A stretch of DNA of 46,544 nucleotides from a bacterium (GTDB taxonomy: Bacteria > Planctomycetota > Planctomycetia > Pirellulales > Pirellulaceae): the NCBI GenBank assembly GCA_024743355.1, contig JANSWS010000011.1, positions 1-46,544 of the forward strand. Direction: 5' to 3'. Position numbers and translations under genes: made by a program. The notes under the pieces were generated by a model. The model did not search any database and was not told the origin of the DNA. It saw only the letters and a list, made by a program, of their open reading frames with translations. This document shows, one piece after another, positions 31,871 to 45,995 of this stretch (positions are counted from its first letter, which is position 1; the number at the start of each line of letters is the position of its first letter).

Positions 31871-32668
31871 ATGACAGCACCATCGCAGACAGCAGGATCG
31901 GATAGCAAGCAAGCGTCGCGCGCAAGACTCACTCACAGCGAATTGCTTCAACTGAAACGCTGGAATACACCCACTATTTACAATGGCTGGGAGCAGATCA
32001 CCAGACTGGATGCGGCTGCCCCGGTTACCAATCTGGAAGAAACGCGTGACTTCATGCCGCAAATGGGCCCCATGATTGGCTATGCGGTCACTCTGATCAT
32101 CGAGCCGAGCAAGCGTGGTCACAAGCTGAACAACGCTTCAGCCTGGCAGGACTATCGCCAATATATTGCGGCTCAACCTGGTCCCAAGATCGTGGTCGTT
32201 CAAGACTTGGACAAACCTGCAGTGATCGGATCCTTCTGGGGCGAAGTCAACGCCAACGTGCATCGCACGTTGGGATGTGTGGGCACGATCGTCGACGGGG
32301 CCGTACGCGATGTCGACGAAATGACCAATGCTGGGTTCAAGTCGCTTGCCCGACGGATGTGCGTGGGACATGCGCATAGCATTCCCGTTCAATGGGGATG
32401 CGAAGTCAGTGTTTTTGGCACGCGTGTCGTTCCTGGACAGCTGATACACGCCGACAAACATGGCTTCATCGCAGTTCCTCATGAAGACGAAGAACAACTC
32501 TTGAGGGCGGCGGTACAGATGGATATCAACGAATGCGAGACGGTAATTGCGGCAGCGCGTTCCTGTCACGGACTTTCCATGCAAGACAGCGTGCAACGCA
32601 TCAATCAGGCAAGTGCCGAATTTGGGAACAAGACACGCACCCTGTTTGGTCGCAGCGGTGAGCACTAA
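31871..32668 (+). CDS. RraA-like / HMG aldolase family protein
   Basis: Protein of 265 residues of the RraA/dimethylmenaquinone-methyltransferase-like superfamily, whose members are class II 4-hydroxy-4-methyl-2-oxoglutarate or oxaloacetate lyases or RNase E inhibitors. The signature is clear: GCVGTIVDGAVRDVDEM contains the Arg-Asp pair that positions the metal and pyruvyl substrate, and VVPGQLIHADKHGFIAVPHE matches the later conserved Asp-x-x-Gly. The N-terminal 30 residues are an extra polar segment. Aldolase or decarboxylase activity is plausible, but the substrate cannot be told. Its stop overlaps that of the convergent membrane-protein gene. Confidence 0.87.
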   Translation: MTAPSQTAGSDSKQASRARLTHSELLQLKRWNTPTIYNGWEQITRLDAAAPVTNLEETRDFMPQMGPMIGYAVTLIIEPSKRGHKLNNASAWQDYRQYIAAQPGPKIVVVQDLDKPAVIGSFWGEVNANVHRTLGCVGTIVDGAVRDVDEMTNAGFKSLARRMCVGHAHSIPVQWGCEVSVFGTRVVPGQLIHADKHGFIAVPHEDEEQLLRAAVQMDINECETVIAAARSCHGLSMQDSVQRINQASAEFGNKTRTLFGRSGEH

Positions 32669-33589: not shown

Positions 33590-35032
33590 ATGGATCGAAG
33601 ATACGCGATCGAGTCACCGCAGGAGGTACTGGTGCTTTGTCGTGAGCGTGATGTCCGAGCTGTTGATTTACGGTTTTCAGACATCCAGGGGCGGATGCAT
33701 CACAAAACGGTACCCGTGAGCCAATTGACAGAGGACTCGTTCGAGGATGGCTTTCGGTTTGACGACCTTCACTTGTCGGGTTTTGGCAAACCGGATGCCG
33801 CGGAGATGCTGTTGATCCCTCAGCCCTCCACGGCCTGGATTGATCCATTCTGCGCCATCTCCACGGTAGTGTTGAATTGTGCGATTCAGGATCCGCTGAC
33901 ACGTGAAGACGACCTATTCGATTCGCGGAGTATTGCGCGGCGAGCGGAGAACTTTCTGATTGGAACCGGGATCTCCGATGAGGCACTGTTTGGGGCGTTG
34001 GTCGAGTTCTTTATTTTTGACAGCGTGGGCTATGACCAGACTCCAAGCACCGCTTTCTACGAAATTCATAGCGATGAAGCCAATTGGAATCGCCGCCCGG
34101 GTGCCTTGAGCCTGTCGCCATTGCAAACGCCAGTGCCGCGAACTCGGGAGAGTTTCTTTCCATGTACTCCTGCGGATCACACCGTCGAGATGCGTGGAGA
34201 AATGATGCAGACCTTGGTCACCAGTGGTGTGCAGGTCGAATCGCAACACCACGCCGTGGCCGCCCCAGGACAAGCGGGCATTCGCTTGCAGCCCAAGCGA
34301 ATCGTCGAACTGGCAGATGCTTTGATGAACTTCAAGTACATTGTCAAAAACGTTGCTCACCGCCACGGGCGGAGCGTTACCTTCATGCCCAAGCCGCTCA
34401 TCGGCAATCACGCCAGCGGTTTGCATTTCGACATTTCTTTATGGAAGGCTGGCGAACCGCTGGTCGCTGGGAGCGGGTTTGGTGGCCTGAGCGATGCAGG
34501 CTTACACGCGATTGGCGGTATTCTTCGGCACGCTCCAGCTCTTCTCGCATTGACCAATCCGACAACCAATAGCTACAAGCGACTGGTGCCCAATGGATAC
34601 GCTCCTATTCAACTCGGGTATTCTCCAAAGCTAAGGACCGCCGCCTGTCGAGTTCCCATTTCCAGTCCAAGTCCCAAGTCAAAACGCATCGATTTTCGCT
34701 GCCCCGACCCGAGCTGTAATCCCTATCTGGCTACCGCGGCTATTCTGATGGCTGCGATCGACGGCATTCAAAACAAGATTGATCCAGGCGATCCCATGGA
34801 AGACAACGCGCAGGGACACGAATCGGGAAACCCGAATCAACCGCAGACCACTCCGAATACACTGGAAGCCGCTTTGATCGCTCTAGAAAATGACAGCGAC
34901 TTCTTGCTACGCGGTGAGGTCTTCTCCGAAGAACTGCTGCGGAATTGGATCGCCTTCAAGCGCGACACGGAAATTGCCGCCTTGAGGGCTCGCCCTCATC
35001 CCTATGAGTTCTGCATGTATTACGATCTGTAA
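33590..35032 (+). CDS. Glutamine synthetase type I homologue with degraded active site (probable pseudoenzyme)
   Basis: Full-length (480 aa) colinear homologue of GlnA: LRFSDIQGRMHHKTVP, ATP-binding KNVAHRHGRSVTFMPKP, NPTTNSYKRLVP, CPDPSCNPYLATAAILMAA and C-terminal RPHPYEFCMYYDL. Compared with Salmonella GlnA, metal ligands are lost: Glu129 is Leu137, Glu212 is Ala222, Glu220 is Gly230, and Glu357 is Asp368; only Glu131 (Glu139) and His269 (His279) remain. The flap Glu327 is Tyr337, substrate His271 is Asp281, and the adenylylation Tyr397 region is replaced by AQGHES. Active-site arginines (331, 349, 354, 370) and the fold are kept. It is therefore unlikely to make glutamine; a regulatory, binding or altered ligase role is possible. 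AGGAA lies eight bases before the ATG. A small TGCCAG/CTGGCA stem follows the stop. Confidence 0.9.
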   Translation: MDRRYAIESPQEVLVLCRERDVRAVDLRFSDIQGRMHHKTVPVSQLTEDSFEDGFRFDDLHLSGFGKPDAAEMLLIPQPSTAWIDPFCAISTVVLNCAIQDPLTREDDLFDSRSIARRAENFLIGTGISDEALFGALVEFFIFDSVGYDQTPSTAFYEIHSDEANWNRRPGALSLSPLQTPVPRTRESFFPCTPADHTVEMRGEMMQTLVTSGVQVESQHHAVAAPGQAGIRLQPKRIVELADALMNFKYIVKNVAHRHGRSVTFMPKPLIGNHASGLHFDISLWKAGEPLVAGSGFGGLSDAGLHAIGGILRHAPALLALTNPTTNSYKRLVPNGYAPIQLGYSPKLRTAACRVPISSPSPKSKRIDFRCPDPSCNPYLATAAILMAAIDGIQNKIDPGDPMEDNAQGHESGNPNQPQTTPNTLEAALIALENDSDFLLRGEVFSEELLRNWIAFKRDTEIAALRARPHPYEFCMYYDL

Positions 35033-35081: not shown

Positions 35082-38000
35082 TTATTGCCGGGAGGCGGGA
35101 GTGATCTTGAGGAGAGTGGTTTCCTCGCCGCGTTTGACCTTAATCTCCGTTTCTTGACCGACTTTCAAGGCCTCAATCGCGTAGGTGTAGTCGTAGATGC
35201 TTTCGATTTTACGGCCCGCCAACTCGACAATCACGTCGCCGGCTTTGACGCCGCTTACTTCCGCGGGTGCTCCCTTTGTCACTCCGCCCAACTTGACGCC
35301 GGTGACATCTTCCTGGGCATAATCTGGAACCGTTCCCAGATAGGCCGTCAAATTAGCTCGCATTTCTGGCTGAGCAGGCTGATCTTGATATTCCGGCGCC
35401 GCTTCCGACATCAGCAGATCGCGCGTCACCAGAGCCATTAACTTGGCAACATCGGCGGCGCCTTCATAGTTCAGCAATTCAGGCACATCGCGAGGCGTGT
35501 GATACTCAGCGTGAGAGCCGGTGAATGCCGACAGAATGGGCACACCATGCAGAAAGAAGGTGCTCGCATCAGTAGGCAAATGGCAGTCGTCTTGGAGCGT
35601 CAGGGCCAGACGAGCAACGGCATTGCGTCTTTCAATGATGGACTTCCAGGCCGGCGATGAACCAATCCCTTGCAACACCAGTTTTTCACGCAATCGCCCA
35701 ACCATATCCAAGTTAACGCAGGCAGCAATCGCGGGATAGAGAGGCAAGGCGCCAGCCTGAACGACAGCAACATCCGTTGTCGCATGCAGGTTTGCTTGCT
35801 CGGCGGCAGCGTCCGCTTCGATTTCCAAAGCCTCGACAGCGTGTGGAGATCTTCCCGCAGGAACTGCATCGCCATGAACTGCATCGCCATGAACTGCATC
35901 GCCATGAGCTGTTTCACTATGAGCTGTTTCACTATGAGCTGTTTCACTATGAGCTGTTTCACTATGAGCAGGAGAGCCATGAGCAGGCGACCCGTGCGCT
36001 GAGGAACCGTGCGCTGAGGAACCGTGCGCTGAGGAACCGTGCGCCGCTGCGCCATGCCCGGCATGAGCGTGGGACATGAGATGCTTCATACGTTGCGGAT
36101 AGAGGTCATAGAATTCTTCCGCAAAGGCACTCGAGCCGCGGAGCCCCAACTCTTCGCCGCTCCAAGCCGCAATCAGCACGTCCCGCTTGGAATCCAATTT
36201 CCCACTGCGGACTTGATCCGCCAGGTATTGAGCGATCTCCAGAACACAAGCGACTCCGGAAGCATTATCGTCCGCTCCGCGGTGAACACCGCCCGCCTCG
36301 TCGTCCGTTGCTAACGATCCCCCGCCTTGTCCGGTCCCGAGGTGATCGATGTGGGCTCCGACCAGAACCAACTCGTCCGCAGGTTCACTGCCCGTCTGCA
36401 GAAGAGCCAAAACATTTCGACCTCGGCTCGTCACGGGCTCGACGTCGACCAAGGCCGACAGTTGCGAGCCTTCAAGTTCAAAGCCCATCTGCGGCTCTCC
36501 GCTATCAAACTGGCTCTGAACTTCTTTGATATCCTTACCCGCGGTGGTGAACCATTCTGCCGCCACCTCGTCGGCGACGCTCACCACGCTGAGACTGGTC
36601 CCGCCCAGCGTTCCATCCATGCTTAAGGGCATAACCCTTGATCGCAACTGGCTATTGGGCCCACTGACGAAGATCAATCCTCGTGCGCCTCGGTCGCGAG
36701 CCACCATCGCCTTGTAGCGGGCACCGCTAAAGCGGGCCAACTGCTGCCTTCGTTCCGGCGAAATATCTTGGGGCATCTGACGGAAAACCAGTACCCACTT
36801 ATCTTGAACATCGAGATGGACGTAGCTGTCATACTCTTCTTGACCTTCTTCGGCCGGAGCCACGATGCCGTAGCCGGCACATACAATTGCCGACGGTTCG
36901 ACTTCTCCCTCGCGAGAAAAGAAAACGGGCCGCCACTGCTCATTAACTTCGTAGCTTTGGCCATTGCATGCCAGTCGATTTTGCTCGCCGAGCCGCACAC
37001 TGGACACGAACTCAAAGTCGTGGAAGAAACTGCCATCCGAACCGGCTGGAACAAGCCCCAGGCTTTCCAGGTAAGCGGCAACGTAGGCGGTCGCCCGCTG
37101 CTCACCCGGCGTGCCGGTCATTCGCCCGCCCAATTCTGGCCGGCACAGATAATCAACGTGCCTACCCACATCCTGCGGCTCAAATCCCGGAGCAGTGGCT
37201 TCGGCAGCCAGAGCAGCCTGCTGAGCTCCCTCATCGATGCCCTGACCTGAGGCCTCTAGACCGAGCAGCTCCCGAGCCCGGCCATCGTTCCATTCAGCCT
37301 CGTACAACTGCGATTGAGAACTGCCGCCGTTGCTGGTCCAAACCAGAGTCGCTCCATCCGGAGTGAAAACTGGCAGTCCATCAAAGCCTTCGCGATAGGT
37401 GACTCGCACCGGCTCTCGCTCGCCGCGCGCATCCACGAGATACAATTCAAAATTTGCAAAGCCATGCAGATTCGTAGCAAAGATCAGATAGTCGCCACTG
37501 GGATGATAAAAGGGCGCCCAACTCATAGCTCCTAGACGAGTGATTGCCTGCGGGTTGCTCCCGTCGACATCCATCGTCATGATTTCCGCAGTGGCACCGT
37601 CGGGACTAAACCTTCTCCAACAAATCTTCGAACCATCAGGGGAAAAGAATGGACCTCCGTCATATCCGATGGCATCGGTCAATCTACGAAGTCCGCTGCC
37701 GTCTGCCCGCATGAGATAGATGTCCATTGCGGAAGCAGGGTCGACTTCGAACAACTTTTGCTCTTCGTCTGACAATTCTCCACTGTATGCCCGCCGATTG
37801 GACGCAAAGCAAATCCAATTTCCATCCGCGGAATAGGATGCTTCCGCATCGTAACCTTCCACTTCGGTCAGCTTTTGATAGGCACCTGTTTTGGCATCCC
37901 ACACAACCAACTCGTAGGTTGGATCGTAGTCCCAGCTATAACGGCGTTCCTGGCCGGAAGCCCGAAAATCAATTTCATCTTTTTGTTTTTGCAATGCATC

Positions 38001-38387
38001 CGGATCGAACTGCGTCGACGCATAGAGCACTTGTTCTCCGCTGGGGTGAATCCAAGCACAAGTGGTCTTGCCGTGTCCCGGAGAGACACGTCGTGTATCG
38101 CCTGTTTCCCGGTCCATCATGTAGATTTGGAAAAAGGGATTGTCCGGTTCTCGCTCGCTCTGGAAGACCAGTTGCTGGCCATCGGCCGAGAAATATCCCT
38201 CGCCCGCACGTTTGCCGGCAAAGGTAAGCTGCCGAATTTCCGACAGCAGCTCGGCCTGCATTTGCTGAGCCTTCGCGGCATCCTCTGACAAGAGATCCTG
38301 CCCCCTTGCGACGACGCTCAGGCTGCTCAAGGTCATCAGGCAGAATAAAGACAGGAAAGGAACGGAGGGACGAATCACGTTTAGCAT
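35082..38387 (-). CDS. Secreted M28 metallopeptidase with TolB-like propeller and PDZ domain
   Basis: Exported protein of 1101 residues. After a signal peptide (VPFLSLFCLMTLSSLSVVARGQ), a TolB/DPP-like beta-propeller spans about residues 45-400 (repeats such as YFSADGQQLVFQSER, FFSPDGSKICWRRF, VFTPDGATLVWTSN). Next comes an M28 peptidase with inserted PA-like domain. Zinc ligands are present: VLVGAHIDHLG, RGADDNASG, WSGEELGLRGS, CVNLDMVGR and HAEYHTPRD. A C-terminal PDZ domain (about residues 1010-1101: GVKLGGVTKGAPAEVSGVKA) follows. A His-rich pentapeptide repeat interrupts the M28 domain (about residues 770-845). The ATG chosen gives the signal peptide; 17 more codons are open upstream. It faces the GS-like gene and lies downstream of mtdB on the same strand. 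Confidence 0.93.
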   Translation of the reverse strand: MLNVIRPSVPFLSLFCLMTLSSLSVVARGQDLLSEDAAKAQQMQAELLSEIRQLTFAGKRAGEGYFSADGQQLVFQSEREPDNPFFQIYMMDRETGDTRRVSPGHGKTTCAWIHPSGEQVLYASTQFDPDALQKQKDEIDFRASGQERRYSWDYDPTYELVVWDAKTGAYQKLTEVEGYDAEASYSADGNWICFASNRRAYSGELSDEEQKLFEVDPASAMDIYLMRADGSGLRRLTDAIGYDGGPFFSPDGSKICWRRFSPDGATAEIMTMDVDGSNPQAITRLGAMSWAPFYHPSGDYLIFATNLHGFANFELYLVDARGEREPVRVTYREGFDGLPVFTPDGATLVWTSNGGSSQSQLYEAEWNDGRARELLGLEASGQGIDEGAQQAALAAEATAPGFEPQDVGRHVDYLCRPELGGRMTGTPGEQRATAYVAAYLESLGLVPAGSDGSFFHDFEFVSSVRLGEQNRLACNGQSYEVNEQWRPVFFSREGEVEPSAIVCAGYGIVAPAEEGQEEYDSYVHLDVQDKWVLVFRQMPQDISPERRQQLARFSGARYKAMVARDRGARGLIFVSGPNSQLRSRVMPLSMDGTLGGTSLSVVSVADEVAAEWFTTAGKDIKEVQSQFDSGEPQMGFELEGSQLSALVDVEPVTSRGRNVLALLQTGSEPADELVLVGAHIDHLGTGQGGGSLATDDEAGGVHRGADDNASGVACVLEIAQYLADQVRSGKLDSKRDVLIAAWSGEELGLRGSSAFAEEFYDLYPQRMKHLMSHAHAGHGAAAHGSSAHGSSAHGSSAHGSPAHGSPAHSETAHSETAHSETAHSETAHGDAVHGDAVHGDAVPAGRSPHAVEALEIEADAAAEQANLHATTDVAVVQAGALPLYPAIAACVNLDMVGRLREKLVLQGIGSSPAWKSIIERRNAVARLALTLQDDCHLPTDASTFFLHGVPILSAFTGSHAEYHTPRDVPELLNYEGAADVAKLMALVTRDLLMSEAAPEYQDQPAQPEMRANLTAYLGTVPDYAQEDVTGVKLGGVTKGAPAEVSGVKAGDVIVELAGRKIESIYDYTYAIEALKVGQETEIKVKRGEETTLLKITPASRQ
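35858..36046 (-). repeat. In-gene 15-bp tandem repeats encoding His-rich pentapeptides
   Basis: On the plus strand, units of 15 bases occur in three blocks: GAACTGCATCGCCAT (3 copies), GAGCTGTTTCACTAT (4 copies) and GAGGAACCGTGCGCT-like (about 3 copies), with transitional units between. On the coding strand they give about a dozen pentapeptides with a His every five residues (SAHGS, ETAHS, DAVHG types). All keep the reading frame. The three blocks seem to be separate local amplifications from one ancestor. Confidence 0.9.
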
Positions 38388-38585
38388 CTTCTCAAAGCAC
38401 CCGAACTGAGTGAAATAGCGGTCAGCAGAAGCCGACACGGCTGTATTTAGGAATCCATCGATTTGTCGATTATACGCTCAAGCCAACTTGGCTGTTCGCC
38501 GGAGACGGAACCCGGACAGACAGCCGTCAACGCTGTCCGCATAGCTGTCTAGTATAGCTGCGTTGAAGGCCTGCTCTTCCAGCGT

Positions 38586-39464
38586 TCAATTCTCGAGCTG
38601 ACAACCGACCTGCATGATTTCCTCGGCATCCAGCAGCAGGTCATTCTTGGTAAACAGTTTCTGAATGGAAGCCCGATGGATCTTCATTTTCAAGCCACCG
38701 ACCCCGATGGCTCCGTAATCGAACCGCTCGCCCCGTTTTTCAGCCTTGTCGGTGGCCGCAATGCCGAACAAGCCGCAGGGTGGCACGGCATTCAAGTCGA
38801 TAGCCACTCGAGCACGATCGGCCAGTTGCATCTGCCGCTCATCCAGCAACTGAACTCCTGCCGCACCACAGCCGAAAATGGCGTCCGTGGCAGCGATTTC
38901 CCGATCAAGCCCCTGTCGATCGGAGGATGCAACCGCAAGCAAACGCGTTTCGAAATCGGGTCCCAAGTGTGCAAGAATCTTCCCCCGGGCCGACTCGACT
39001 CGCGTCAAATCCCGCGAGACCAAAGTCACGGCAGTCCCCTGCTGCAGTAACAAGCGGGCCACACGCCCGCCAACGGGCCCCGTTCCCCCAAGGACCAATG
39101 CCTTGGAGTCGGAGAGAGAAACATGCCTGGCAGCACTCAATACGGCCGCCACGGCGGTCGTGTTTGAGCCATTACCATCCAACATGACCGATACAGAGAT
39201 TGGTCCGAAAAACAGTTTGCGTACCGCGGCCGCGATGGAGTCTCCAGCCTGTGCGTCCGATCCGCCAATAAAAATTGCCGTGTTCTTCAGGGCGTCAGGA
39301 GCGCGGGTGAACATGGCTCCATGTACCAGCGGTGTAAGATTTTCGGGGGAGACGTCTCCGTAAGACAAGAGATGCTCAACACCCGAGTCGACCGCAACAA
39401 TCGCATCAAACGTGCTCGGCAAAGGATCCGAATCGAGTTGGATGAGTACTTTCGCCTGCGACAT
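38586..39464 (-). CDS. mtdB: NAD(P)-dependent methylene-tetrahydromethanopterin dehydrogenase MtdB
   Basis: Cytosolic enzyme of 292 residues that oxidises methylene-H4MPT to methenyl-H4MPT with NAD(P), the step after formaldehyde capture. Marks: the N-terminal FDAIVAVDSGVEHLLSYGDV, TPLVHGAMFTR with IFIGGSD, and the Rossmann loop ALVLGGTGPVGGRVARLL followed by VSRDLTRVESARG. The C-terminal GVGGLKMKIHRASIQKLF is typical of the MtdB/MtdC group. A GGAAGTGG sequence lies about eight bases before the ATG. It is downstream of fae on the same strand, separated by 232 bases with a strong hairpin, so the two may be separate transcripts. MtdB versus MtdC cannot be fully settled by eye. Confidence 0.9.
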   Translation of the reverse strand: MSQAKVLIQLDSDPLPSTFDAIVAVDSGVEHLLSYGDVSPENLTPLVHGAMFTRAPDALKNTAIFIGGSDAQAGDSIAAAVRKLFFGPISVSVMLDGNGSNTTAVAAVLSAARHVSLSDSKALVLGGTGPVGGRVARLLLQQGTAVTLVSRDLTRVESARGKILAHLGPDFETRLLAVASSDRQGLDREIAATDAIFGCGAAGVQLLDERQMQLADRARVAIDLNAVPPCGLFGIAATDKAEKRGERFDYGAIGVGGLKMKIHRASIQKLFTKNDLLLDAEEIMQVGCQLEN

Positions 39465-39696: not shown

Positions 39697-40200
39697 CTAG
39701 GAGTCAAAGCCCTTGAATGGGTGGGCAGCAGTATCTTTCTTGTCGATCATTTCCTGGGCCGATGGCTTGCCTTGCATCGCATTGGCGATGGCATCCTTGG
39801 TAGCCTCGTAATTGTACTGGTAGATCTTGGCGTTATCTTCGGCTTCGGGGTGAATGAAAACACCGCAGACGATGACCAGATCTTCGGCCTGATCGGCGGG
39901 AATGACGCCGGCCGCGACTTGATCTGCCACTGCCTTGGCAACCGCGAATTGGGCGGGACCAAACATTTGCACAGCTTGCTTCATGCCCTTGATAGTCACC
40001 TTGGTAATCATGACGGTAGAGGGTTTAACAGCCACATTGGGCTCCAAAACCGCCAACAAATTCGTGTGACCAGCACTCTGGGTAGATAACGCATTCGCGA
40101 ATGCGGCACCAACTGGACCATCCTTGCTCCCAATCATCAAATCGATGTGGGCAATTTCGTTTCCTTCGCCGACCAGTGATTCGCCAACCATCAGTGACAT
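39697..40200 (-). CDS. fae: Formaldehyde-activating enzyme
   Basis: Enzyme of 167 residues that speeds condensation of formaldehyde with H4MPT to methylene-H4MPT. It is very close to bacterial Fae: VGESLVGEGNEIAHIDLMIG with the catalytic His18, GPVGAAFANALSTQSAGHTN, LAVLEPNVAVKPSTVMITKV, IKGMKQAVQMFGPAQFAVAK, and PADQAEDLVIVCGVFIHPEA near the end. The AAGGA box about eight bases before the ATG supports the start. Presence of Fae with MtdB and beta-RFAP synthase indicates an H4MPT formaldehyde oxidation route. Upstream is a 780-base region shared with a divergent gene, so it should have its own promoter. Confidence 0.97.
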   Translation of the reverse strand: MSLMVGESLVGEGNEIAHIDLMIGSKDGPVGAAFANALSTQSAGHTNLLAVLEPNVAVKPSTVMITKVTIKGMKQAVQMFGPAQFAVAKAVADQVAAGVIPADQAEDLVIVCGVFIHPEAEDNAKIYQYNYEATKDAIANAMQGKPSAQEMIDKKDTAAHPFKGFDS

Positions 40201-42279: not shown

Positions 42280-43317
42280 TTGCGAGATGTAAATTTGAAA
42301 GACTTGATCGCGTTTGTTCCCAAGCTCTTGTTGTTTGGCCTGGTGAATTTGGCTCTGTGCACGGTAAATCCAACGGTCAGGGACGCCCAAGCCCAAACCG
42401 AAACGATTCGCGTCGACCCTGCCCTTCCAGAATACGCACCAGTACCCGGGATCGCGGGCGGCAACATCCAAGTCGTCGGCTCCGAGACGATGAACAACAT
42501 GATGACCTTTTGGCTGGAAGATTTTCAGTCCATGTACGATGAGATCCGACCGGAGATCGATTCGAAAGGATCTAGCAACGCCTTTCCAGCCCTGATCGCG
42601 GGCCAAGCCAATCTGGGCCAGATGAGCCGCGAACCCAAGAATACAGAGATTGCGGATTTCCGCTCACGCTATGGCTACGACCCTTTGGTTCTACCGACTG
42701 CGATCGATATGGTTGCCGTCTGGGTTCACAAAAATAATCCGATTGAGAAAATCAGCTTTGAGGAATTGGATGCCATATTTTCCAGCACCCGATTGCGTGG
42801 CGCGCGTCGCCGGGCCACGCATTGGACGGATCTACTGGGCTCGGGCAGCGGAAACCAGCGTCCGATCGTCTGCTACGGACGCAATGCTGCTTCTGGGACC
42901 TACGGATTCTTCAAGCAGATGGTGTTGAATCAAGGTGATTATGGCCCCTGGGTCAATGAGTTGAGCGGTTCATCGATTGTCGCGCAGGCGATTGGATCTA
43001 ATCCGGAAGGCATTGGCTACAGCGGTATCGGTTTTCAAACCGCCAACGTGAAGCCTCTTTCGGTTTCCGCGCGGAGGGGCGGACCTTACTTTGCTCCCCA
43101 GACGAAATTTGCGTACAGTCGCGAATACCCGCTATCCAGGTTTCTCTACATCATTTTGAATCACGATCCTCGGCAAGATCTGGATCCTACGCGAAGGGAA
43201 TTTCTACGCTACATCTATAGTCGCCAGGGACAAGAACAAGTGGTTAGGGACGGCTACGTTCCACTAACAGCAGAGATGGCAAGCTCCATACTCGGCAAAC
43301 TTGGGATCGAACAGTGA
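42280..43317 (+). CDS. pstS: Phosphate ABC transporter substrate-binding protein (PstS family)
   Basis: Periplasmic binding protein of about 345 residues. A signal peptide follows the start (KDLIAFVPKLLLFGLVNLAL ending at AQAQ). Phosphate-binding loops are visible: IQVVGSETMNNMMTFWLEDF at the N-terminus, SKGSSNAFPALIAGQANLGQ with MSR, and GRNAASGTYGFFKQMVL. This belongs to the longer PstS-like subfamily that partners with long PstC proteins. The start is uncertain: TTG 42280 or TTG 42295, and neither has a good ribosome binding site. Its stop overlaps the GTG of pstC (GTGA), indicating an operon. No Pho box was identified upstream. Confidence 0.85.
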   Translation: MRDVNLKDLIAFVPKLLLFGLVNLALCTVNPTVRDAQAQTETIRVDPALPEYAPVPGIAGGNIQVVGSETMNNMMTFWLEDFQSMYDEIRPEIDSKGSSNAFPALIAGQANLGQMSREPKNTEIADFRSRYGYDPLVLPTAIDMVAVWVHKNNPIEKISFEELDAIFSSTRLRGARRRATHWTDLLGSGSGNQRPIVCYGRNAASGTYGFFKQMVLNQGDYGPWVNELSGSSIVAQAIGSNPEGIGYSGIGFQTANVKPLSVSARRGGPYFAPQTKFAYSREYPLSRFLYIILNHDPRQDLDPTRREFLRYIYSRQGQEQVVRDGYVPLTAEMASSILGKLGIEQ

Positions 43318-45995
43318 GCATGCAGCCAACTGGGACAGGCCCGGCGCGGCAAACGCAAGCTGGCAGCCAAGCCGCGTCAAGCGAGGCGGTCACGACTCCA
43401 TTTCGCGTCCGCGTCAGCGACCCTCTCATGGGAATGCTGATCGCCGTCGGCGGCGTGGGGACCATCTTAGCGTTGTTGCTGGTGGTTATGGTCTTGGTAT
43501 TCACCGCTTTGCCGCTTGTGCGACCTGCTCGCATAGGTGACTGGCACCAAATCCAGACCGATGGTTCGTACCAGCATATCGGCTGCGATTCGGGGGCGAG
43601 TCTTTCTTGGGGAATGCTTTCCGATGGACGCATTGAAGTTCGCAGCCTGCAGGATGGCGCTCTGGTCGCCAACTATGGCCGGCCAGCAGAGTCTCCCGAA
43701 ATCAGCTGCAGTTCATTGTCAATCGACCAGAGAACTTTAGCACTGGGCTTAGAAGATGGATCCTTTTTGACTGCCGCGATTCAATTTCAAGAAGAGCTAC
43801 TTGCGCCTGCGGAACTTCCCGCGGAGATCCGCGTATCACGGCAGAATCCAATACAACGATTTAACGAATCGGTTTTTGAGTGGCTTGATGACGAAAGTAT
43901 TCGACGCGTGCAGTTAGCTCCCATCGTCTGGTCCTCACGGATGCAACTCGCTGATTCTCGACTAACTGCGATTGACTACGTGGAAGCCGAGTCACTCAAT
44001 GCCTTCGGCAGCAACAGCCAAGCGCAGGTTTTGGCTGTTGCCGCCGGAGAATCAACCGCTCAGCTAGTTCGCGGCGAACTGCAGCGGTCGGCTACTTTGT
44101 TTGACGCCACGAACCAGATCCAACTGGAAACCGAATCGATTGACATCCGCTCTCGAGCCGCGGATCATCGCCCATTACGCATCATGTTGGCTAGCGGTAA
44201 TCAACACGCGCTGGTTCTGTGGCCCAATGGTACCCTGGACCGCTATTCCGATTTTTCTGACGGCTTCAAAATCCGGGAATCGCAATCCACGACCTTCGGC
44301 GACTCTTCAGTCACTTCCGCTGCACCTCTTCTAGGCAGACAGGTGCTGATGTGCGGCACCAGTGATGGCCGGCTTCAGGGCTGGACCATCAACAATGTTG
44401 ATTCCATTGCAGGTCCCGATACGACGGTGACTCAGGATGGATTCGAGCTGAGCTTGAGTCATGACATGCAGATCAGTCAGGCTCCGCTGCAAGCTCTAAT
44501 AAGCAGCCAACGCACGCAGGTCGCCGCGGTGGCGGACGCTCAGTCGCGCGTGGGCATCGTCTACCTCACCACGGACCGGCTGATCGGTATGACCGCGGCC
44601 TGGACAACCGAAGTAGAAGCGGGAGAGCCCAAGGCTTTAGCCCTTAGCCCACTGAGCTCAGCCATTTTCGCCTGCAATGGGAGAGAGCTGGCGTTTTGCA
44701 GCCTTGACGCGGAGCATCCGGAATCTTCATGGCGGACATATTTTGGACAAGTTTGGTATCAGGGCCACGATCGCCCAAAATACATCTGGCAATCGACCGC
44801 CGCTAGCGAAAACTCGGAACTCAAATTGAGCCTTATCCCGTTGCTGTTCGGCACCCTTAAAGCCGCAACCTTTGCGATGCTCATCAGTCTTCCCATAGCG
44901 CTGTTGGCGGCCATTTATACCAGCGAATTTCTCAGCTCGAAGATCCGTTCTTACGTCAAACCGATGATCGAGTTGATGGCTACGATTCCTGGCGTCGTAT
45001 TAGGCTATATCGCGGCAGTGATCATCGCGCCGCTCACGGATCAGCTCTTGATGCCTTGTTTGGCGGCAGTGTTCCTGCTTCCTTTGTGTTTTTTGTGCGG
45101 TGGCCGCTTGTGGCGAGCTTTTCAGTCCGACCCGCAGACACCTGCTCGCGGTGCCAAACGACTGCCCTGGATGCTCATCCTTTTTCCGCTTGCGTTATGG
45201 CTCTCATTCCATGCCGGCTCTGCCTTTGAGAAAATCTTCTTCACCGGAGACTTCGCGAATTGGATCACCACCGGCCAGGGCACGGCAGTGGGTGGATGGA
45301 TCTTGCTCCTAGCACCGGTGTGTACTCCCGTGTGCATCTATTTGGCCAAGTTTCTGCAAGCCTTGTTGGCCGAAGTGCTTCCATGGCAAGGCAAGAAGCC
45401 TCGGGCAGCGGTTTACAGCGTGCTGCCTCCCATCTACGTTGCTCTCGGGATATTTCTGCTGTCTTGGTTGGCTGGACAGATGTTGACCTGGGGTGGTTGG
45501 GATCCTCGATTGTTCTTATTTCTCAACTACCAGAATCCAAACGCCTTGTTGGTGGGGGCGGCGTTGGGCTTTGGCATCATTCCTGTAATTTTCACACTGG
45601 CAGACGACGCCTTACACTCTGTGCCAGCCCAACAAAGGAACGCATCGCTGGCTTGCGGAGCGAGTCGCTGGCAGACCACCTTGCGAATCGTAATACCGGC
45701 GGCAGCGAGTGGACTCTTAAGTGCTGTTATGCTCGGGTTTGCCAGAGCCGCAGGTGAAACCATGGTTGTGCTGATGGTTGGAGGGAATACTCCCATCATG
45801 GAATGGAATCCCTTCAGCGGACTGCGCGCGTTGACAGCCACACTGGCCACAGAGCTGCCGCAAGCTATCAAGGGCAGTACGCATTATCGCACTCTTTTTC
45901 TGGCGGCCATTTGTCTATTCGCTATTACGCTCATCGCCAATACCGCGGCTGAGCTGATACGCAATCGAATCCATCGGAGTTCCAGCCGACTATGA
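43314..45995 (+). CDS. pstC: Phosphate ABC transporter permease PstC, long form with large periplasmic domain
   Basis: Inner membrane permease of 893 residues. After a polar cytosolic N-terminus and one helix (LIAVGGVGTILALLLVVMVL, about residues 41-60), an extracytoplasmic domain of about 430 residues follows, with WD/propeller-like strands (SLSWGMLSDGRIEVRSLQDG, LMCGTSDGRLQGWTINNV). The ordinary PstC core follows (LSLIPLLFGTLKAATFAMLI onward), with the ATPase-contacting EAA loop ACGASRWQTTLRIVIPAAAS. The helical core also contains a longer insert (WMLILFPLALWLSFHAGSAF). Usual PstC is about 300 residues; long forms are known in gammaproteobacteria. Start and stop overlap both neighbours by four bases. 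Confidence 0.9.
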   Translation: MSMQPTGTGPARQTQAGSQAASSEAVTTPFRVRVSDPLMGMLIAVGGVGTILALLLVVMVLVFTALPLVRPARIGDWHQIQTDGSYQHIGCDSGASLSWGMLSDGRIEVRSLQDGALVANYGRPAESPEISCSSLSIDQRTLALGLEDGSFLTAAIQFQEELLAPAELPAEIRVSRQNPIQRFNESVFEWLDDESIRRVQLAPIVWSSRMQLADSRLTAIDYVEAESLNAFGSNSQAQVLAVAAGESTAQLVRGELQRSATLFDATNQIQLETESIDIRSRAADHRPLRIMLASGNQHALVLWPNGTLDRYSDFSDGFKIRESQSTTFGDSSVTSAAPLLGRQVLMCGTSDGRLQGWTINNVDSIAGPDTTVTQDGFELSLSHDMQISQAPLQALISSQRTQVAAVADAQSRVGIVYLTTDRLIGMTAAWTTEVEAGEPKALALSPLSSAIFACNGRELAFCSLDAEHPESSWRTYFGQVWYQGHDRPKYIWQSTAASENSELKLSLIPLLFGTLKAATFAMLISLPIALLAAIYTSEFLSSKIRSYVKPMIELMATIPGVVLGYIAAVIIAPLTDQLLMPCLAAVFLLPLCFLCGGRLWRAFQSDPQTPARGAKRLPWMLILFPLALWLSFHAGSAFEKIFFTGDFANWITTGQGTAVGGWILLLAPVCTPVCIYLAKFLQALLAEVLPWQGKKPRAAVYSVLPPIYVALGIFLLSWLAGQMLTWGGWDPRLFLFLNYQNPNALLVGAALGFGIIPVIFTLADDALHSVPAQQRNASLACGASRWQTTLRIVIPAAASGLLSAVMLGFARAAGETMVVLMVGGNTPIMEWNPFSGLRALTATLATELPQAIKGSTHYRTLFLAAICLFAITLIANTAAELIRNRIHRSSSRL

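Follow-up and report, generated by a model that had tools for sequence, protein, structure and literature searches.

A degenerate type I glutamine synthetase with a conserved fold in a Pirellulaceae genome that encodes an intact type II enzyme

Introduction

Glutamine synthetase is among life's most conserved enzymes. Its type I form (GSI) assembles as a dodecamer, not as the decamer named in the original prediction for the gene described here. The same fold occurs in lengsin, a protein of the vertebrate lens (PDB 2j9i) that is believed to have given up catalysis for a structural role. GlnE of E. coli acts on glutamine synthetase through two domains: the C-terminal one AMPylates it and the N-terminal one removes the AMP (PMC12409994). 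Gram-positive GSI acts on GlnR, a precedent for regulation by the GSI dodecamer beyond catalysis (PMC9249791). We found no paper on a planctomycete or bacterial pseudo-glutamine synthetase in the open-licence literature. Here we describe a degenerate GSI gene in a 46,544-nucleotide stretch (the window) of a Pirellulaceae genome (G000; contig JANSWS010000011.1, assembly GCA_024743355.1), and compare its residues, evolution and regulator with those of its relatives.

Results

The gene (33590-35032, + strand) is a complete frame of 480 aa with the Pfam domains Gln-synt_N and Gln-synt_C. The protein scored 483.9 bits against the NCBIfam GlnA profile TIGR00653 (cut-off 429), which places it in the family by descent, and it could be aligned end to end with the structurally solved GSIs of M. 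tuberculosis and E. coli. It is thus the full-length GlnA homologue that the original prediction described. Alignment to E. coli GlnA, whose numbering we use, revealed eleven altered functional codons. All of the residue losses proposed earlier were present: E129L (residue 137 of the window protein, 33998-34000), E212A (residue 222, 34253-34255), E220G (residue 230, 34277-34279), H271D on the nucleotide side (residue 281, 34430-34432), E327Y in the catalytic flap (residue 337, 34598-34600), E357D (residue 368, 34691-34693), and Y397Q at the adenylylation (AMPylation) tyrosine (residue 408, 34811-34813). The additional changes were S53H in the subunit-interface (D50) loop (residue 61, 33770-33772), Y179F (residue 189, 34154-34156), and N264H with G265A in the glutamate-site loop (residues 274-275, 34409-34414). 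From general knowledge of GSI, we take E129 and E357 to be ligands of metal site n2, and E212 (also part of the ammonium site) and E220 to be ligands of site n1.

Of the six metal ligands of the enzyme (E129, E131, E212, E220, H269, E357), only E131 and H269 remain. The flap and ammonium site have diverged as well (E327Y, S53H, Y179F, E212A, with D50 present), and the tyrosine through which GlnE regulates GSI-beta is a glutamine. D50, E131, E207 and H269 are retained, as are R321, R339, R344, R355 and R359, the substrate arginines that had been predicted to persist. Most of the altered and retained positions coincide with residues assigned to substrate or metal in GSI (PMC10349072). In 95 other GSIs of the family, the metal, flap and arginine residues were intact; with eleven separate codons altered in an open frame, chance or sequencing error is therefore not an adequate explanation. 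Judged from these residues, glutamine synthetase catalysis has very probably been lost from the window protein.

The window genome (98.5% complete) encodes two Gln-synt_C proteins: the window GSI and, on contig C276, an intact 338-aa GSII in which the motifs FDGSS, FEQE, NAEV, QWEF, GSGMH and GLHE were recognized by eye. The original prediction had suggested looking for a second, canonical glnA in the genome. The search found no second GSI there, with GSII the only other Gln-synt_C protein and the predicted working enzyme. Gene order in the congener G196 (PstS, h40981, mtdB, M28, GSI, RraA) is that of the window, and congener G190 has the same order minus the M28 gene. The GSIs of both congeners retain the metal, flap and arginine residues and are 60-61% identical to the window protein. 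On sequence grounds, the window gene is the orthologue of GlnA, not a spare paralogue, and the only GSI of its genome. Its clade placement was within the genus in one tree and, by way of a long branch, outside it in another.

Flanking genes include an RraA-like protein (31871-32668, + strand), a conserved syntenic neighbour, and the convergent M28 peptidase/TolB-like propeller/PDZ protein (35082-38438, - strand), which also adjoins GSI in G196. The latter carries a long tandem repeat rich in His and Ala (AHGSS, AHSET; 35600-36070), and its alignments to relatives break at this repeat (residues about 785-898). Beyond it lie the syntenic marker mtdB, an mtdB-like methylene-H4MPT dehydrogenase (38586-39464, - strand; Pfam Mpt_N), and Fae (39697-40200), identified by eye from its translation and not by profile. 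The neighbourhood is as first described, with the M28 gene as the one gene between GSI and mtdB. The suggestion drawn from it, a ligase in cofactor synthesis, is not supported: mtdB likewise flanks the catalytically intact GSI of G196 and G190, so these neighbours have no bearing on a new function. An Rfam search of the window returned no RNA elements.

Evolution of the gene was accelerated. Counted at sites with the same residue in two of the three genomes, the GSIs of G000, G196 and G190 carry 106, 20 and 27 unique changes, respectively; the window GSI evolved four to five times faster than those of its congeners. Its tree branch measured 0.89 changes per column, compared with 0.14-0.24 for the canonical GSIs of G196, G190 and G184. 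The same counts showed no excess in G000 for mtdB (26/24/34) or RraA (21/25/21). At 42280-45995 of the window, PstS and the large gene that follows it are richer in changes specific to G000 than to G196 or G190. The excess in PstS (70/16/23) and in the gene at 43314 (152/59/43) means that acceleration in G000 is not unique to GSI.

The original prediction held that selection maintains this catalytically dead homologue, and frame and fold indeed bear the marks of purifying selection. A branch codon model, in which congeners were the nearest relatives compared, rejected omega = 1 (LRT 74.8), although dS was saturated. The point estimate of branch dN/dS was unusable, with dS running to 44, so we profiled omega with dS fixed; at values near those of the sister branches (1.2-1.6), omega was about 0.15-0.21 on the window branch against a background of 0.05. 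Because dS is saturated, a short recent neutral phase may still have occurred. Simulated neutral evolution, with a congener's gene as proxy ancestor, predicted 7-14 stop codons per 163-300 nonsynonymous changes, and none was seen. Among columns at least 97% conserved across 95 canonical family GSIs, the window protein lost 19 of 63 in active-site loops (44/63 kept) and 5 of 80 elsewhere (Fisher p = 2e-4), a partly circular contrast given that the loop split was set once the catalytic changes were known, with boundaries that we took from general GSI knowledge; the evidence for the fold is the 75 of 80 columns kept elsewhere. Columns of 50-70% conservation were matched at only 37%. The very degenerate relatives G137, G059 and G033 lost many conserved columns outside the active site too.

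The AlphaFold model of the window protein (pLDDT 81.4, pTM 0.86) was close in confidence to that of an intact same-genus control, G108, predicted from the same sequence set (pLDDT 84.3), and its best PDB match was E. coli GS (Z 49.7). Extra low-confidence stretches (66-69, 269-273 and 407-416) fall close to the loops of D50, N264 and Y397. Loss of catalytic residues thus coincides in this protein with a fold conserved under purifying selection, as in a pseudoenzyme.

Across 199 Pirellulaceae genomes, GSI was canonical in 96, degenerate or frame-broken in 16, of a very degenerate type (g11, 5 of 12 examined residue by residue) in 12, partial in 6 and undetected in 69. GSII or GSIII was present in 93 of the 97 genomes with a degenerate, g11-type or missing GSI; the four exceptions (G052, G084, G085, G113) are assemblies of 72-89% completeness. 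Among canonical-GSI genomes, 66 of 96 have another glutamine synthetase and 30 have none (Fisher p = 4e-7 for GSI state against other synthetases, computed ignoring shared ancestry). A Pfam profile search for hidden GSI in 25 genomes classed as GSI-less yielded only GSII and GSIII over the cut-off, besides the G137 and G105 proteins, which are very degenerate. Three members of the window genus (G023, G082, G155) have no detectable GSI, and the GSIs of G137, G163 and G199 are very degenerate.

Degenerate GSIs across the family carry differing sets of residues. Parsimony on the GSI tree (a quick tree with long branches) gave 6 changes, at least 4 of them forced by well-supported branches, which rules out a single origin of the degenerate forms; catalysis is predicted to have been lost at least four times in Pirellulaceae. 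The original prediction had treated Glu-bearing relatives as grounds for suspecting sequencing error or recent decay. Congeners do have the Glu residues, so the loss is lineage-specific, but error is not the cause, and GSIs of other genera have degenerated too, through different sets of residues. The milder relatives G012 and G147 have changed ammonium and flap residues and kept metal ligands. The family's amine-ligase-like paralogues (G001b, G044b, G058, G016), all with complete metal ligands, form a separate clade.

Several degenerate genes stand in distinctive settings. The GSI of G129 (L040 4908-6313) is spread across several reading frames, although GSI is intact in congeners; the genome has GSIII, and this GSI is likely a recent pseudogene. 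In three loci (L041 5031-6371, L042 4997-6307, L035 5010-6428), the degenerate GSI lies directly downstream, on the same strand, of GSIII (G097, G053) or GSII (G012), starting 70 bp after GSII in G012 and 245 bp after GSIII in G097. This arrangement would be consistent with co-expression of the degenerate gene and the working enzyme. In a different genus of planctomycetes, a GSI carrying E207S and E327D (Planctomicrobium sp. OFTM320, L233 2847-4259) is possibly a further degenerate form.

The regulator of GSI has decayed alongside. E. coli GlnE bears the motifs S172-D-I-D (N-terminal) and S700-D-L-D (C-terminal). In the window genome, GlnE (on another contig, C696; L344) has the N-terminal motif HELE (D173E, D175E) and an intact C-terminal SDVD. 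The N-terminal motif was intact in 17 of 19 canonical-GSI genomes and 5 of 23 others (p = 1.2e-5, for a hand-picked sample and ignoring ancestry), the latter comprising 4/13 degenerate, 1/1 frame-broken, 0/1 g11 and 0/8 GSI-absent genomes. Catalytic loss in GSI thus appears usually to be accompanied by loss of the GlnE deadenylylation motif. The C-terminal AMPylation motif was intact in 8/8 sampled GSI-absent genomes (GlnE loci within L309-L348). With AMPylation kept and deadenylylation lost in all eight, GlnE in GSI-less Pirellulaceae may modify another protein. In the three GSI-less genomes of the window genus, GlnE matches were absent or marginal only.

Discussion

We consider a pseudoenzyme the best account of the window gene and a somewhat probable one: a GlnA (GSI-beta) orthologue, freed by GSII and kept folded for a non-catalytic role. 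GSII would have taken over glutamine synthesis, after which GSI lost its chemistry. The protein would make no glutamine and still assemble the GSI dodecamer, and selection would keep a binding or scaffold role, with a candidate ligand held through the retained arginines; alternatively, its putative partner may be GSII, GlnE or another nitrogen-signalling protein. Any such role is dispensable, given that no GSI was detected in three congeners; and if the degenerate relatives had a new function in common, they might be expected to share one set of new residues, which they do not. Both points count against this reading. A relic in slow decay ranks behind it as a serious if less probable account: selection relaxed after the GSII takeover, and GSI drifts toward loss with no function or a fading one. 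The recurrence of catalytic loss (4 to 6 tree changes) with unlike residue sets, the genus members that lack the gene, the broken frame of G129 and the advanced degeneration of G137, G163 and G199 all favour decay. Against it, the window frame has stayed open through roughly 80-100 amino-acid changes beyond those in congeners, columns conserved elsewhere than in the active site are kept, and neutrality was rejected. A bolder extension of the pseudoenzyme reading, which we regard as unlikely, is that the GSI/GlnE pair was converted to a non-catalytic regulator in GSII/GSIII-reliant Pirellulaceae. The dead dodecamer would serve as a binding sensor, and GlnE, without deadenylylation, would AMPylate another target (e.g. 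GSII or a PII protein) as a one-way nitrogen signal.

An enzyme with changed chemistry, ligating a different amine or acid in the manner of the GSI-superfamily gamma-glutamyl-amine ligases, would account for the retention of the substrate arginines, E131, E207 and H269, and G012 and G147 show the pattern of altered ammonium and flap residues with preserved metal ligands that amine ligases have. We nevertheless hold it to be improbable for the window protein: with E129, E212 and E220 gone and E357D, neither metal site is complete, and the family's amine-ligase-like paralogues are metal-intact and belong to a different clade. The change of four of the six metal ligands makes the new ligase chemistry proposed originally unlikely. 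More improbable still is that the gene encodes a working glutamine synthetase or reflects a sequencing or assembly artefact. It does pass the NCBIfam GlnA cut-off, but the open frame with its many altered functional codons and the synteny with relatives speak against this, as does the matching decay of GlnE on another contig of the same genome. Most of the altered positions, moreover, serve substrate or metal in GSIs that have been studied (PMC10349072).

Repeated loss of catalysis with the fold kept and GlnE decaying in step offers a natural experiment on GSI beyond catalysis and on the replacement of an essential enzyme. It also bears on annotation, as the standard cut-off would label the window protein GlnA, assigning the wrong enzyme to the organism. 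Because the AMPylation motif of GlnE survives in sampled GSI-less genomes, a second AMPylation target can be tested for directly.

Among known systems, GSI-beta GlnA (TIGR00653; E. coli 7w85, M. tuberculosis 2bvc) has the same predicted fold as the window protein (Z 45.8-49.7) and a conserved C-terminus; the window protein differs from it at four metal ligands, the flap Glu, ammonium and glutamate residues, and the AMPylation Tyr. The gamma-glutamyl amine ligases (PuuA, GlnA3/4, GmaS) share with it altered flap and ammonium residues within the GSI superfamily, but they combine these with intact metal sites, which the window GSI lacks, and the family's relatives of that kind fall in another clade. 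In the Gram-positive GlnR system, GSI is an active enzyme, unlike the predicted window pseudoenzyme. Lengsin is only a remote match (28.6 bits); it is eukaryotic and of separate origin, whereas the window gene is a bacterial GlnA orthologue.
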